In this document: positions 3,617 through 57,580 of the stretch, piece by piece | How the letters are laid out: the number at the start of each line of letters is the position of its first letter | How positions within the stretch are numbered: position 1 is the first letter of the stretch | DNA from: Candidatus Roizmanbacteria bacterium RIFCSPLOWO2_01_FULL_37_12 | GTDB lineage: Bacteria > Patescibacteriota > Microgenomatia > UBA1406 > GWC2-37-13 | Direction: 5' to 3' | Assembly (NCBI GenBank): GCA_001789645.1 | Contig: MGAG01000037.1 | Coordinates: 13,345 to 71,629 of the forward strand | DNA: 58,285 nucleotides | Made by a program: the position numbers and the translations under genes | Notes under the pieces: generated by a model | Database searches by the model: none | What the model was told of the DNA's origin: nothing | The model's input: only the letters and a program-made list of their open reading frames with translations

Positions 3617-4087
3617 ATGTATCATAGTCCAACTTACGGAAAAGTAGATCTTGAAAAATTAAAATACATCGTATCTAATTTTATGGCTCAGGATAAGAAG
3701 GCAAAATATGAGATTGTAGTCGGAACCGACTCGCAAAAAATTAAAAAGGATACTTACGACTTTGTTTCCGCTCTGATTGTCCATCGAGTCGGCTTTGGAG
3801 GGATTTATTTTTGGAAAAGAGAGATCAGGGATAAAAAAATCAGCCTGAAAGAAAGAATATACCAAGAAGCAACCATGTCTTTGGAGACTTCGGAGAACTT
3901 CATCAATTTTTTTAAAGTTAACGGAATTGCTAGGTATAACATACAGATTCATGTCGACATAGGACACAACGGTGAAACCAGAGAGATGATCAACGAGGTC
4001 GTTGGAATGGTCAGAGGCAGCGGCTATGATGTAAAAATTAAGCCGGATTCATACGGAGCTTCTAAAGTTGCTGATCGATACACCTAA
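3617..4087 (+). CDS. YkuK-type RNase H-fold protein (DUF458)
   Basis: A 156-residue protein that matches the DUF458/YkuK family, predicted to have a ribonuclease H-like fold. Visible signatures are VGTDSQ (residues 35-40), which starts the first strand with an acidic residue, HVDIGHNGETREMI (about 112-125), and the conserved C-terminal IKPDSYGASKVADRYT. It starts 5 bases after the rtcB stop, so cotranscription with archease and RtcB is likely. This context suggests an RNA-related role, but the biochemical activity of the family is not established to my knowledge. Confidence 0.85.
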   Translation: MYHSPTYGKVDLEKLKYIVSNFMAQDKKAKYEIVVGTDSQKIKKDTYDFVSALIVHRVGFGGIYFWKREIRDKKISLKERIYQEATMSLETSENFINFFKVNGIARYNIQIHVDIGHNGETREMINEVVGMVRGSGYDVKIKPDSYGASKVADRYT

Positions 4088-4089
4088 TT

Positions 4090-4182
4090 CAAATTCCAAG
4101 AAACAACTCACAAGATACAAAAAATCCCAAATTACAAAACACAAGAAACAAACAAATCGCAATATCCAATTACAAACTTTCC
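4090..4182 (+). repeat. Left heptad arm of S23 element 1
   Basis: Contiguous 7-base words start at 4090 (CAAATTC), 4097 (CAAGAAA), 4104 (CAACTCA) and 4111 (CAAGATA), followed by a 10-base word and further CAA-type words to about 4182. The region is A-rich and has no ORF. It begins 2 bases after the ykuK stop codon. Confidence 0.75.
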
Positions 4183-4305
4183 AAAAATTAAAATAAACCT
4201 CTTTTAGGGATATAAAAATTTATTTCTCCGGGGAAAGTTGATTTGAGTATTTTTTATTGAATTTTTTACTTTATTAAAAATATATTCAGCTGTTTGCTCG
4301 ACCGT

Positions 4306-4740
4306 TTAATCACTATTATCTATAATTTCTCCATAATTAACTTTGTCTAAGTTTCTTTTATAACTATCTCTTATGTAACTTTTATCTCTTTTGTCTATTT
4401 CCCGTGTTCCTCTGTATGTTAAAACTGTTGTAAGAGGAGGTTTAAAAGTAAAAGCAAAAATGTCGGAATCTAACGGTTTTAATTTCTTAACTAGCGATTC
4501 GTATCCTTTGTCTGAAATGTGATAAGTTATTAAAACATTTAGATTTTTTTCGATAAAATCTTTTGCAACTGATAAGGCAGTGTCAAATGCGATTGTCCAA
4601 GCTGGTTCGTTGTCCATCCAGTCTATAAATTCCCTAATTTTATCCACTTCAATATAGGCACAGTTTGGGATTTTTTCCCATAAGATTTTAGCAACAGTTG
4701 TTTTACCAGAATTTATTGGGCCATTAAGTACTATAATCAT
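4306..4740 (-). CDS. Small P-loop kinase-like protein (AAA_33 type)
   Basis: A 144-residue P-loop NTPase. It opens with a beta strand and Walker A, MIIVLNGPINSGKTTVAK, as in small-molecule or nucleic-acid kinases of the AAA_33/zeta-toxin/chloramphenicol-phosphotransferase type. IEVDKIREF follows as in such kinases, and an Arg-rich lid with YRGTREIDKRDKSY is near the C-terminus. I chose the ATG at 4740 because the Walker strand starts there and because it overlaps the S23 stop as ATGA, the usual sign of coupling. Translation could extend to 4788 in the same frame, but those residues read the S23 tail. Substrate unknown. Confidence 0.65.
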   Translation of the reverse strand: MIIVLNGPINSGKTTVAKILWEKIPNCAYIEVDKIREFIDWMDNEPAWTIAFDTALSVAKDFIEKNLNVLITYHISDKGYESLVKKLKPLDSDIFAFTFKPPLTTVLTYRGTREIDKRDKSYIRDSYKRNLDKVNYGEIIDNSD

Positions 4741-5051
4741 ATAGAGTTTTTTATTATCGCTGAAAGAATATTTTTTAGTTCGGTGCATTCTTTTAATAAT
4801 ATCTCAATCTGTTCTTTGAATTTATTATCTGCTTCATTTATTAGTTTTAACCAATACATTGTTTCCTTTGCTTCTTTTCGAGCAATTTTAATTCTATGGA
4901 TAAAATCTTTTTTCCCGAGTGAATCATTTGCTTCAATGTAGTTTGCTCCGATCGCTGTTCCTGATCTTATAAGTTGACCTATAAGAGGAATTGTAATTAT
5001 ACTTTTTGGAAGTATTTTACATAATCTAATTATTTCTTTTGAAAACTCCAA
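4737..5051 (-). CDS. S23/four-helix-bundle (23S rRNA IVP family) protein, copy 1
   Basis: A protein of about 104 residues from the S23/IVP/Avd-like four-helix-bundle family. The family signature is clear: LIGQLIRSGTAIGANYIEAN followed by KKDFIHRIKIARKEAKETMYWL. The family is found inside 23S rRNA intervening sequences and, as Avd, with diversity-generating retroelements, but orphans have no known function. The frame is open upstream to about 5086 and encodes KKYDLEERT, which matches copy 3, but no ATG is available. Either TTG at 5051 is used or the gene has lost its start. Its stop overlaps the kinase ATG. Confidence 0.8.
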   Translation of the reverse strand: MEFSKEIIRLCKILPKSIITIPLIGQLIRSGTAIGANYIEANDSLGKKDFIHRIKIARKEAKETMYWLKLINEADNKFKEQIEILLKECTELKNILSAIIKNSI

Positions 5052-5098
5052 AGTTCTTTCTTCAAGGTCGTATTTTTTCGTATTTCTTTTTTATTCGT

Positions 5099-5183
5099 CA
5101 ATTTGTAATTTGTTTATTATTTGTTTCTTGGTACTTGAAAATTGGATATTATTTGTATCTTGTGAATTGTGAGTTGGGATTTG
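5099..5183 (-). repeat. Right heptad arm of S23 element 1
   Basis: Read on the minus strand from 5183, the arm consists of words CAAATCC, CAACTCA and then CAATTCA, CAAGATA, with 11-base words (CAAATAATATC type) between groups, ending with CAAATTA near 5106. It is inverted relative to the left arm and shares several words with it. It ends 7 bases from the Lon-like stop codon. Confidence 0.75.
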
Positions 5184-5190
5184 AGAAATT

Positions 5191-6345: not shown

Positions 6346-6669
6346 ATGGCAAAAGTACAAAATAACCAGTCTGTCGCCAGGCAAAGTATTCAACCTCTTT
6401 TTGATTACGTATTGGTTAAACCTCTCGAGCAAACTCAAACTACTCCTTCAGGAATTGTCTTACCGGATACAGTCAAAGAAAAACCCCAAGTCGGTCAAGT
6501 TATGGCGGTAGGACCGGGGACCGTCAATGACCATGGGCAAAAAGTACCGATGGTTGTTAAGGTTGGTCAAAAAGTACTTTATAAAAAATGGGGTGGAAAT
6601 GAGGTTAAGGTAGGAACGGAAGAGTGGCTTTTGATTGAACAAAAAGATGTAATGGCAGTAGTTGCATAA
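6346..6669 (+). CDS. groES: Co-chaperonin GroES
   Basis: A 107-residue GroES, the lid of the GroEL folding chamber in the cytoplasm. The core starts at about residue 16 (IQPLFDYVLVKPLEQTQTT), has the mobile-loop region SGIVLPDTVKEKPQVGQVMAVGPG and ends with the GTEEWLLIEQKDVMAVV strand. It is about 10 residues longer at the N-terminus than the usual 95-residue protein. It precedes groEL by 130 bases, a gap that contains a heptad-array repeat. Confidence 0.97.
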   Translation: MAKVQNNQSVARQSIQPLFDYVLVKPLEQTQTTPSGIVLPDTVKEKPQVGQVMAVGPGTVNDHGQKVPMVVKVGQKVLYKKWGGNEVKVGTEEWLLIEQKDVMAVVA

Positions 6670-6674
6670 AATCA

Positions 6675-6762
6675 CAAATTACAATTCACAAGATGCAAAC
6701 AAATTTCAAATAATTAAATTTACAAAAACATTTGTAAGTTGTTTCTTGGGATTTGGAAATTG
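6675..6762. repeat. Gene-less (MITE-like) copy of the S23 element arms
   Basis: The left arm on the plus strand has CAAATTA (6675), CAATTCA (6682), CAAGATG (6689) and an 11-base word. The right arm is five perfect contiguous heptads, 6728-6762, read on the minus strand as CAATTTC, CAAATCC, then CAAGAAA, CAACTTA, then CAAATGT. The order CAATTCA-CAAGAT matches the right arm of the element at 4090-5183, and CAAGAAA-CAACT matches its left arm, so this looks like the same element in opposite orientation without its genes. It lies between groES and groEL. Confidence 0.65.
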
Positions 6763-6787
6763 TTAAAAATTTAGTTATTAATTTTAA

Positions 6788-8676
<1,889 letters not shown>

Positions 8677-8717
8677 AGATATTAATAGAATTTACACGGT
8701 CAATTTCGTTCCAGACT

Positions 8718-8784
8718 GTCATGCTGAATTTATTTCAGCATCTGTTTTTACTAAAATCAGATCCTGAATCAAGTTTAGGATGAC
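8718..8784. repeat. GTCAT...ATGAC double-hairpin repeat, copy 1
   Basis: A 67-base element with terminal GTCAT and ATGAC. The first hairpin pairs TGCTGAA with TTCAGCA; the second pairs ATCCTGAA with TTTAGGAT (one G-U in RNA). AAAATCAG lies between them. It separates the SafE-cupredoxin and CopZ-like genes. Confidence 0.75.
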
Positions 8785-8806
8785 AAAAAGTGCGCAAAAC
8801 TTGTTT

Positions 8807-28102: not shown

Positions 28103-28169
28103 GTCATGCTGAACTTGTTTCAGCATCTGTATTTACTAAAATCAGATTCCGAAATAAATTCGGAATGAC
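28103..28169. repeat. GTCAT...ATGAC double-hairpin repeat, copy 2
   Basis: A 67-base element. Hairpin 1 pairs TGCTGAA with TTCAGCA; hairpin 2 pairs ATTCCGAA with TTCGGAAT. Compared with copy 1, the second hairpin differs but stays fully paired. Confidence 0.75.
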
Positions 28170-28201
28170 AATAGGTAGAATTATACTTTTTCAAAAACCC
28201 C

Positions 28202-41411: not shown

Positions 41412-42581
41412 ATGATTAATAAAAAAATTTCAATCTTTATTTTTGTTCTGGTTTTTATTTTTTCTGCATACATTTCATATTCCGTCTTTGCCAAAAACGG
41501 TACATCCTTATTAACGCAAACAAAGTATAAACCGCCGGAAACAAGCAGTAACGGGAATAAAACAAACGGGTCCGTAACCAGTGAAGCAAAAACCGAAGAA
41601 TGCCCGATAAACGGAGAACTTTTTGGTAAATCGATCAGCCAAAAGTGGATAAAAAGGAGACCATTGGGAATAATGATAGAAAATAGCACAGCGGCACGAC
41701 CGCAGTCTGGTTTGTCCGCCGCGGATATTATTTACGAAACCGTAGCTGAAGGAGGCATTACCCGGTTTTTGGCAATTTTTTATTGCCAGGATGCCTCTTA
41801 TGCCGGCCCGGTACGCTCAGCCCGAATTTATTTTATTAAACTATTACAGGAATATGGCGACTATCCGCTGTATGCACATGTTGGCGGGGCAAACACCGAC
41901 GGTCCGGCAGACGCTCTTGGCGAGATTGACGATTTGGGGTGGGGACTTTATAACGATCTAAACCAATTTGGAGTTCCCTTCCCGTATTATTGGCGGGACT
42001 ATGAACGACTTCCCGGCAGAATAACAGAACATACGGTTTACACTTCTACTTCTAAGCTATGGGAGTATGCAAAAACAAAAAGAAACCTGACAAATGTCGA
42101 TAAAAAAGGAAAGTCATGGGATGTTAATTTTGAAAAATGGATATTTAAGGATGACGCCGGATCTTCCGAAAGAGGTAATTTAAGCAAAATAAGTTTTTCT
42201 TTTTGGGATTCTTTTGCCACGGATTATGCGGTTAGTTGGACTTACGAAAAAGCAACAAATACTTTTAAGAGAAATAACGGTGGGTCGCCACATCTGGATA
42301 AAAACTCCGGCAAGCAGCTGGAGGCAAAAAACGTAGTCATTGTTTTTGCCAAAGAATCCCCGGCTAACGACGGCTACGAAGGCGGTCATATCTTGTATAA
42401 ATTGACCGGTTCAGGAAATGGATTGATATTTCAAGACGGAAATGCGGTCAAAGTTACGTGGAACAAAAAAACCGAAGAGTCAAGGCTGAAGTTTTTTGAC
42501 GCGAATGGCAGGGAAATATCATTTGTCCGTGGTAATATATGGGTGGAGATTTTACCAATAGGAAACGAAGTGACTTACTGA
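41412..42581 (+). CDS. DUF3048 (YerB-like) lipoprotein-type protein
   Basis: A 389-residue exported protein with an N-terminal membrane or signal segment (about 6-26) and a Thr/Ser/Asn-rich linker. The DUF3048 core follows: RPLGIMIENSTAARPQSGLSAADIIYETVAEGGITRFLA, then YAGPVRSARIYFI and the acidic GGANTDGPADALGE; the C-terminal half has NVVIVFAKESPANDGYEGGHI and GRGIYFQDG-type strands. YerB relatives act at the cell surface. No Cys for lipidation is present in the signal region. Confidence 0.88.
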   Translation: MINKKISIFIFVLVFIFSAYISYSVFAKNGTSLLTQTKYKPPETSSNGNKTNGSVTSEAKTEECPINGELFGKSISQKWIKRRPLGIMIENSTAARPQSGLSAADIIYETVAEGGITRFLAIFYCQDASYAGPVRSARIYFIKLLQEYGDYPLYAHVGGANTDGPADALGEIDDLGWGLYNDLNQFGVPFPYYWRDYERLPGRITEHTVYTSTSKLWEYAKTKRNLTNVDKKGKSWDVNFEKWIFKDDAGSSERGNLSKISFSFWDSFATDYAVSWTYEKATNTFKRNNGGSPHLDKNSGKQLEAKNVVIVFAKESPANDGYEGGHILYKLTGSGNGLIFQDGNAVKVTWNKKTEESRLKFFDANGREISFVRGNIWVEILPIGNEVTY

Positions 42582-42588
42582 TAAGTAA

Positions 42589-42650
42589 GTCATCCCGAAC
42601 TTGTTTCGGGATCCCGTTAAAATCAGATGCTGAAACAAGTTCAGCATGAC
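42589..42650. repeat. GTCAT...ATGAC double-hairpin repeat, copy 3
   Basis: A 62-base element. Hairpin 1 pairs ATCCCGAA with TTTCGGGAT; hairpin 2 pairs ATGCTGAA with TTCAGCAT. The two hairpin types are swapped relative to copies 1 and 2. Confidence 0.75.
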
Positions 42651-42660
42651 AAAAACATAA

Positions 42661-49940: not shown

Positions 49941-50429
49941 ATGGATCAAAAAGTCAAGAAGGAGGCTAAACCAGCACAAGATATCGAAAAAATTAAGAAA
50001 GAAAATGAAGAATTAAAAAAACAAATAGAAGATTTTAAGAACAAATATTTAAGAGCCCTGGCCGACTATCAGAACTATGAAAAAAGAGTAAAAGTAGAAA
50101 AAGATCAAGTTAGCCAAACGGTGACTAAGAATGTTCTTTTAAAATTATTACCTTTTTTAGACAATCTTGATAAGGCGCAAGCGTTTGTAAAAGATAACGG
50201 TTTAAAAATGATTAAGGACAACTTTTTCAAAGCCCTACAGGAGATTGGATTGGAAGAAATTCAAGTTTTAGGGAAACCTTTTGATCCTTACACTGCGGAG
50301 GCAATTGATATAGTTGAAGGAAAAGACGATAATATAATTGTAGAGGTTTTAAGGAAAGGTTATAAATATAAGGGACAAATTTTGAGAGTAGCACAGGCGA
50401 AAGTCAGTAAAAAAGTTAGTAATAATTAA
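49941..50429 (+). CDS. grpE: Nucleotide exchange factor GrpE
   Basis: A 162-residue GrpE that speeds ADP release from DnaK. The long N-terminal coiled coil (about 1-75, LKKQIEDFKNKYLRALADYQNYEKRVK) is followed by the beta domain with LGKPFDPYTAEAIDI and GYKYKGQILRVAQAKVSK. It lies 26 bases after hrcA and 110 before dnaK, with a GTCAT-type repeat between. Confidence 0.95.
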   Translation: MDQKVKKEAKPAQDIEKIKKENEELKKQIEDFKNKYLRALADYQNYEKRVKVEKDQVSQTVTKNVLLKLLPFLDNLDKAQAFVKDNGLKMIKDNFFKALQEIGLEEIQVLGKPFDPYTAEAIDIVEGKDDNIIVEVLRKGYKYKGQILRVAQAKVSKKVSNN

Positions 50430-50436
50430 CAATTTG

Positions 50437-50497
50437 TCATCCTGAATTTATTTCAGGATCTGATTTTACGGGGATCCCGGATCAAGTCAGGGATGAA
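50437..50497. repeat. GTCAT...ATGA double-hairpin repeat, copy 4
   Basis: A 61-base element between grpE and dnaK. Hairpin 1 pairs ATCCTGAA with TTCAGGAT; the second half is degenerate (GGGATCCCGGATCAAGTCAGGGATGA) and ends without the last C. Confidence 0.6.
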
Positions 50498-50539
50498 AAT
50501 TGATAAATCAATTTTCAGTTATAAATTTTGTAAATTATT

Positions 50540-52443: not shown

Positions 52444-52531
52444 CATGTAACACGAAACATGTAACTTGTAACATTTTAAAATGTCATGCCACGACTTTCT
52501 TGTGTTACATGTTATATGTTACATGTTAAAT
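52444..52531. repeat. Inverted heptad arrays between dnaK and dnaJ
   Basis: The left part consists of 7-base words CATGTAA, CACGAAA, CATGTAA and then CTTGTAA (52444-52471). The right part, inverted, has AACATGT and AACATAT words on the minus strand (52502-52531). The words differ from those of the S23 elements, but the layout, direct heptads facing their inverted copies, is the same. No gene lies inside. Confidence 0.65.
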
Positions 52532-54776: not shown

Positions 54777-54866
54777 GTCATGCTGAACTTGTTTCAGCAT
54801 CTTTCCTAAAAGATCCTGAAATATATTCAGGATGACGGGAGGTTGGATTCCCGCTTTCGCGGGAAT
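54777..54866. repeat. GTCAT...ATGAC repeat, copy 5, plus a third hairpin
   Basis: The double hairpin (54777-54836) pairs TGCTGAA with TTCAGCA and ATCCTGAA with TTCAGGAT. A third hairpin, ATTCCCGC with GCGGGAAT (54847-54866), follows, also ending in GAC. It lies between epmA and efp and runs up to the efp start. Confidence 0.75.
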
Positions 54867-55446: not shown

Positions 55447-55552
55447 TACGAATGTTACGAATGAAAAATGCAAATTATACTAATTATCCGAATAAAATCT
55501 GAATTAGCATAATTCGCAGCATTTGCATAAGGATTTGCATCATTCGTATCAT
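55447..55552. repeat. Inverted 9-base word arrays between efp and the RodZ-like gene
   Basis: Left words such as TACGAATG, ATGCAAAT, ACTAATTAT recur at 9-base spacing. The right half, read on the minus strand, has ATACGAATG, ATGCAAATC and similar words, so the two halves can form a long imperfect hairpin. No gene lies inside. Confidence 0.55.
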
Positions 55553-57459: not shown

Positions 57460-57580
57460 CATTAAATTTCTAATTTCTAATATCTAATTTCTAATCAATG
57501 ACATAATGACTAAATGATAAAATTAGGAATTTGATCTTAGGAAATTATTTAGATCAATTAGGTTAGTTAGAAATTAGGTC
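57460..57580. repeat. Inverted heptad arrays between radA and argS
   Basis: TTTCTAA or TATCTAA words repeat four times without gaps at 57467-57494. The right half, read on the minus strand, carries CCTAATT and CTAACTAACC words. This is the heptad layout of the other arrays with a different word. Confidence 0.6.

Follow-up and report, generated by a model that had tools for sequence, protein, structure and literature searches.

A gene-less insert between groES and groEL of a Roizmanbacteria genome resembles the inverted heptad-word arms of S23 elements

The spacer between groES and groEL in the window, by which we mean the whole stretch of 58,285 nt of Candidatus Roizmanbacteria DNA analysed here, probably (we put it at roughly 0.7) holds a hairpin without a gene, non-autonomous-like and similar to an intervening sequence (IVS), that belongs to a family of S23 elements with inverted arrays of degenerate 7-nt words as their ends. 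The likeness of the spacer to the S23-type word vocabulary is real, and the copy, although weakly preserved, does belong to a larger pattern, in which S23 genes lie between inverted heptad arms of the same dialect. This specific copy would be minor, the pattern that contains it is not.

The spacer covers positions 6670–6799 and is 130 nt long, and the GroES encoded next to it has a Roizmanbacteria MAG as its closest named relative, with 90% identity. The left arm reads AATCACAAATTACAATTCACAAGATGCAAACAAATTTCAAATAAT and the right arm, given as the reverse complement of 6728–6762, reads CAATTTCCAAATCCCAAGAAACAACTTACAAATGT, and words of the CAANNNN type are present in both, on opposite strands (Table 1). 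The absence of a gene, which was part of the original prediction, holds at the size examined, as there is no ORF of at least 80 aa between 6669 and 6800, and no phage DNA similar to 6600–6820 was found. As a hairpin alone the insert is weak, with a self-complementarity score of 40 (p 0.154, 500 shuffles). The predicted RNA fold of 6675–6762 has a z-score of -2.59 with 3 of 200 shuffles equally good, and that of the whole spacer a z-score of -1.96 with 7 of 200. In the two 45-nt arms, which are too short to be tested by themselves, the lag-7 autocorrelation excess amounts to 0.092 and 0.128.

Table 1. Positions of the S23 element and of the groES-groEL region in the window.
Feature	Position	Strand	Remarks
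Left arm of S23 element, CAA words	4087..4190	+	
Passenger ORF, kinase-like P-loop (PF13238)	4306..4788	-	Inside the S23 element; below the Pfam cut-off
S23 gene (23S_rRNA_IVP, PF05635)	4737..5051	-	E 7.4e-19; frame open upstream to 5090
Right arm of S23 element, CAA words	5096..5186	-	Inverted to the left arm
groES (Cpn10, PF00166), upstream cistron	6346..6669	+	E 4.4e-33
Left arm of gene-less hairpin	6670..6714	+	CAA words on + strand; immediately 3' of the groES stop codon
AT-rich loop between the gene-less hairpin arms	6715-6727		
Right arm of gene-less hairpin	6728..6764	-	CAA words on - strand
groEL (Cpn60, PF00118), downstream cistron	6800..8467	+	E 1.8e-63

The gene-bearing partner is found in the same window at 4087–5186. 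Its two arms are predicted to form an RNA duplex of -60.6 kcal/mol, compared with a mean of -26.1 kcal/mol for shuffled sequences, and pairing of the arms of S23 elements in RNA is on this modelling plausible. The orthologous element at locus L040 has a different ORF at the place of the passenger ORF, and the corresponding site in L041 is without S23. Both the window element and its orthologue in genome G001 fall below the threshold for inverted arms that is given further on, since the arms lie farther out where a passenger gene is present.

According to the original prediction both arms of the spacer contain the words of this element, and here it is well founded. In the two pairings that were named, left spacer arm against right element arm and right spacer arm against left element arm, the scores are 42 and 38, and 0 of 2000 dinucleotide shuffles is as high in either case; left against left gives 48 (likewise 0 of 2000) and right against right 34 (p 0.0005 with 2000 dinucleotide shuffles). 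With a score of 54 the spacer comes first of the 237 intergenic regions sampled from 440 kb of its own genome, the runner-up having 40, and it is again first of the 237 when both arms are demanded, with 38 against 30 for the next region; two CAA-type hairpins (L180:11442–11579 and L181:2189–2322) are absent from the top of this ranking, and the definition of the regions may have missed them. The dinucleotide shuffles and the 237 real spacers thus reject the alternative raised with the prediction, that the arms are ordinary low-complexity AT-rich sequence. In a blastn search of the whole genome the arms of the element were matched with E-values of 0.002 and 0.0085, and two further places in the genome with 1e-4 and 3.5e-4. 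When the spacer is compared with the arms of every one of the 39 S23 loci in the genus its best score is 43, where the 95th percentile of 108 non-hairpin spacers is 43.6, so it is the specific CAA dialect that carries the assignment.

Other parts of the prediction fared less well. The words were said to stand in the same order, but when the CAA words were kept and their order was permuted p was 0.07, 0.12 and 0.10, and it was low (0.0035) for left against left alone. The latter comparison is on the same strand and also gives the best match between spacer and element, which leaves the proposed reversed orientation without support; orientation can in any case barely be determined, as each element arm is an inverted copy of the other. 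The insert is MITE-like, as proposed, in being short and gene-less with inverted ends, and in having longer gene-bearing relatives with the same ends in the same genome, but the inverted pairing is weak (p 0.154). MITEs borrow a transposase, and unlike them the gene-bearing partner here encodes S23 and a kinase-like ORF and no transposase, the copies are diverged, and no target duplication was found. Since S23 is to our knowledge not a transposase, the likeness to MITEs stands as an analogy only. Finally, the insert was regarded as direct support for mobility, but it matches the element arms imperfectly and neither a recognizable target duplication nor a precise empty site was found for it; the spacers of relatives differ or hold other repeats. 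Better evidence for movement comes from S23 units that are shared from arm to arm, and from a site that has S23 in one genome but not in relatives.

All six genomes of the genus contain PF05635, each with between 4 and 10 matches. When the flanks were inspected locus by locus the S23 gene was found between an array of short words and an array of their complement, and the word varies with the locus, examples being GTTAACG, CTAAACT, CGAAATC, TAGTATT, GTTGGAG and CAANNNN. With a threshold of at least 31 for the score of inverted similarity between the upstream and downstream flanks, inverted arms are present at 21 of 38 S23 loci of the genus and at 12 of 414 control genes. A search of the phylum gave a PF05635 match in 70 of 116 genomes, and the 30 loci that it returned were added to the 38. 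Inverted arms are found at 47 of these 68 Patescibacteria loci compared with 2.0% of mismatched pairings, direct repeats pass the threshold at four of the 68, and the summed inverted score of 2407 is above all of 2000 permutations (maximum 1488). The autocorrelation excess of the arms at lag 7 is 0.084 and 0.082 in the genus and 0.117 and 0.101 in the phylum, against -0.004 in 414 control flanks, and there are echoes of the periodicity at lags 14 and 21. Over all pairs the similarity of S23 proteins to each other does not correlate significantly with that of their arms (Mantel test, 125 of 1000 permutations as high); 12 of 39 pairs of close non-syntenic S23 proteins have arms in common, and 0 of the 711 most distant pairs do. 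The proteins probably have a four-helix-bundle fold, an assignment that rests on their similarity to the solved S23 relative 2rld, which has five chains.

The same arrangement is found on plasmids. A tblastn search gave S23 in 36 plasmid records, largely from cyanobacteria, and among the 15 loci examined (14 cyanobacterial and one from Gemmatimonadota) 13 have inverted arms scoring at least 31, against 7% of mismatched pairings, with a lag-7 excess of 0.148 and 0.156. At loci L301 and L315 direct repetition is strong too. The words of the plasmid arms include GGGAACA, GGGAGTA and GTCAGAA, and resemble the cyanobacterial heptamer repeats known as STRR, which go back in the literature to 1990. 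A description of S23 flanked by heptad arrays was not found in searches of the openly licensed literature, outside which most subscription journals lie. In three of the cyanobacterial plasmids (L301, L305 and L308) S23 and its heptamer arms are located between CRISPR genes, twice between cas6 and cas4 and once between cas10 and cmr3.

Several related S23 units have about 450 bp in common from arm to arm at unrelated sites, and as judged from comparison of the loci this shows that the gene-bearing unit of that size moves to non-orthologous sites. The units G001:C37 and G003:C2 have 451 bp in common with 89.8% identity, in a block that starts and ends in the arms and has different flanks. Three other pairs have 454–488 bp in common at 73–77%, and one has 409 bp at 67%, all from arm to arm. 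One pair with 548 bp in common may be partly syntenic, as an extra 179-bp stretch of the flank is also common, another match is weak and broken up, and a further pair, with 1947 bp in common, is a plain orthologue. The site of the S23 element in G001 is free of S23 in G000, G003 and G004, with gaps of 118, 102 and 58 bp respectively; it holds REP-like hairpins in the first two and a one-sided word array in G004, and for this reason no clean empty site or target duplication can be read there.

Gene-less copies of gene-bearing arms are a repeated phenomenon in the genome of the window, as hairpin-bearing spacers that match S23 arms were found in 440 kb of it. The dialect of the S23 at C37:1058 is found as gene-less hairpins at several places, with E-values down to 5e-16, and the C18 dialect also has gene-less hairpin matches in its own genome. 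Among spacers of 60–250 nt, 13 of 46 with a hairpin score at least 42 against S23 arms, compared with 7 of 108 without one, and some of the latter seven look like single arms. The best-matching S23 arm comes from the own genome in just 6 of 18 strong cases, and strictly local amplification is thus not shown.

The 23S rRNA genes of G000, G001, G002 and G003 contain several short insertions with word-like hairpins. Scores against S23 arms are 82 for insertion G002_d, 75 for G000_a and 68 for G002_a, which is of the CAA dialect, followed by G000_c with 50, G001_d with 49 and G001_c with 45, the last to the S23 on its own C13. Six further insertions (G000_b, G000_d, G002_b, G002_c, G002_e and G003_c) score 27–36 and have no assignable S23 arm. 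Judged by the words, the 23S rRNA of G002 also contains the CAA dialect seen in the groES-groEL spacer, and that of G001 does so more weakly. Nested hairpins, with one dialect in the loop of another, were seen at L163:15675–15855, where a hairpin of the win:26336 dialect lies in a CTAAACT hairpin, and in a 23S insertion of G002 (L265:1754–1918), and such nesting would fit insertion into hairpin loops. At L168, a locus with two gene-less copies and no Rfam match, a hairpin-like repeat of about 100 bp (2420–2520) has dozens of copies across species of the genus, with up to 93–95% identity.

In 61 relatives the median groES-groEL spacer is 39 nt, with 19 spacers of at least 60 nt and 42 below 60 nt. 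The comparison of these spacers, which had been suggested as a check, gave a clear absence of the CAA-dialect insert (0 of 61, the best of 53 spacers of at least 20 nt scoring 29 against 54 for the window) but no clean empty site. A significant hairpin (p at most 0.02) is present in 13 of the 61, with varied sequence. The spacers of G121, G127, G131 and G001 resemble an S23 element of their own genome with scores of 46, 42, 55 and 53 respectively, and in the first three no arm in the comparison outscored the own S23 arm, which ranked third in G001. Another spacer (G125/L086) is borderline, the own S23 scoring 33 and coming second. Among the 14 spacers compared, the match to the own S23 is not convincing in L041, L063, L097, L098, L099 and L047, and no S23 was found in the genomes of L077 and L096, which hence have no such match. 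The groES-groEL spacer appears to have received gene-less S23-type hairpins on more than one occasion, though not as a rule, which suggests that the groESL transcript has repeatedly acquired such stem-loops.

In other bacteria groESL mRNA is known to be affected by hairpins between the cistrons, and the hairpins of varied sequence in the 13 relatives could likewise be read as functional RNA that tunes mRNA processing or the ratio of GroES to GroEL, with the likeness to S23 arms being incidental or raw material. This is unlikely, as a hairpin is dispensable in the 42 relatives with spacers below 60 nt, the sequences differ, and the spacers of four genomes resemble their own S23 elements. Slightly less likely still is a local origin, where word palindromes form within AT-rich spacers through slippage and template switching and have no mobile ancestor; the poorly conserved word order and the one-sided word arrays, such as those at the G004 site and in L041, would be expected from it, but not a dialect vocabulary common to distant copies, 23S rRNA insertions among them, nor S23 units that are common from arm to arm at unrelated sites.

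Two enzymes could be thought of as partners of the hairpins. Y1 (HUH) enzymes act on hairpins and Y1_Tnp genes are found in all six genomes of the genus, where, as for REP/BIME palindromes with their RAYT-like Y1 genes, palindromes are dispersed between genes. Unlike in the REP/BIME systems, the Y1 genes at the 12 loci inspected of 28 matches have other ends of their own and none has heptad arms, which speaks against Y1 as the partner of the S23 hairpins and makes mobilization in trans by transposases of the IS200/REP type improbable. Furthermore, the REP-like family of the own genome has a sequence of its own and is not found beside S23 (score of at least 50 at 0 of 39 S23 loci). At the Y1_Tnp loci L316–L326 the motif TTTGTAGCATATAATCCATTGA is conserved upstream and G+C-rich hairpins lie downstream, and these loci are a distinct transposon family. 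A retroelement, with S23 acting as Avd together with a reverse transcriptase, is the least probable of the alternatives: PF05635 resembles Avd according to the accessible part of PMC10053308, but RVT_1 is found in 0 of the six genomes of the genus, three of which are assemblies less than 90% complete, and a reverse-transcriptase partner is largely refuted by this, short of a divergent enzyme outside PF00078. Counting against the preferred reading, a gene-less member of the S23 hairpin family, are the hairpin taken alone (p 0.154), the mostly unconserved word order, the score near the 95th percentile of ordinary spacers when all S23 arms of the genus are used, the failure to find a target duplication or clean empty site, the eight of 14 spacers that lack a convincing match to an own S23, the Mantel result and the 6 of 18 best arms from the own genome.

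In this reading S23 would recognise or bind the repeated words, and gene-less forms could descend from copies that lost the gene and be spread with S23 produced at other loci. A homopentameric S23 might take one word per subunit; the number of words per arm often looks like about four or five, which is an impression and not a count. The arms may fold into a stem that is cleavable by host RNase III, as in 23S intervening sequences, and in the groESL transcript a stem-loop would be left between both cistrons.

In the accessible text of PMC4990558, the IVS in the 23S rRNA of Coxiella burnetii is described as 428 nt long, with tandem GACAGAT heptamers upstream of an S23 ORF, and as excised by RNase III; there the 23S IVS with S23p is also said to have been proposed as mobile earlier, and the S23p of Xanthomonas to be a homopentamer. 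The S23 units found here are similar, with an S23 ORF between inverted ends and a size of 409–548 bp, and gene-less relatives of their dialects are located in 23S rRNA. Unlike a 23S IVS, the spacer hairpin is gene-less and lies between two protein genes and not within a 23S rRNA gene, and its cleavage by RNase III is putative. For 23S rRNA of CPR bacteria, short insertions without ORFs at 23IS2 and 23IS4 have been read as probable IVSs, with 23S_rRNA_IVP in some (PMC11270868); the accessible part of that paper does not contain the words 'intergenic', 'inverted' or 'S23' and makes no link to dispersed elements.

The arms also resemble the heptamer repeats of cyanobacteria, Beggiatoaceae and Xanthomonas, which are intergenic arrays of degenerate 7-nt words, and the S23 genes of cyanobacterial plasmids lie between heptamer arrays of such kind. 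In the accessible portions of two papers on heptamer repeats (PMC4679880 and PMC4692102) the term 'S23' is absent, and the latter mentions the heptanucleotides of Calothrix and reports generally no association with mobile elements. Somewhat below even odds, and thus tentatively, we propose that S23 four-helix-bundle pentamers might be the specificity proteins, and perhaps the mobilizing proteins, of a class of transposase-free mobile hairpins with dialect arrays of 7-nt words as their ends, where 23S IVSs, dispersed CPR hairpins (that of groESL among them) and cyanobacterial heptamer repeats would be gene-less or gene-bearing states and each S23 would read its own dialect. S23 has been familiar for many years from rRNA intervening sequences but had no function assigned to it, and the heptamer repeats had no assigned origin; inverted heptad arrays around S23 in distant groups, together with the movement of the unit of about 450 bp and the gene-less partners in spacers and rRNA, tie the two puzzles to each other and offer a protein to test for each array.

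Other repeats are present in the window. REP-like palindromes (GTCATCCTGAA...TTCAGGATGACA) are located at 8717–8785, 28111–28170, 42577–42651, 50405–50501 and 54785–54836, and the family is also found upstream of groES in relatives. Word hairpins with a peak at lag 7 are also present at 52445–52531 (ATGTAAC words) and 57470–57577 (CTAATTT words). A PDDEXK_3 nuclease gene, presumably of the GxxExxY type, lies between inverted word arms (ATACGAATG/ATGCTAAT words, arms read by eye) at L175:3799–4185 and in L204–L210. Seven PDDEXK_3 genes are present in four of the six genomes of the genus, and gene-less hairpins of this dialect exist as well, one of them in the window at 55452–55552.
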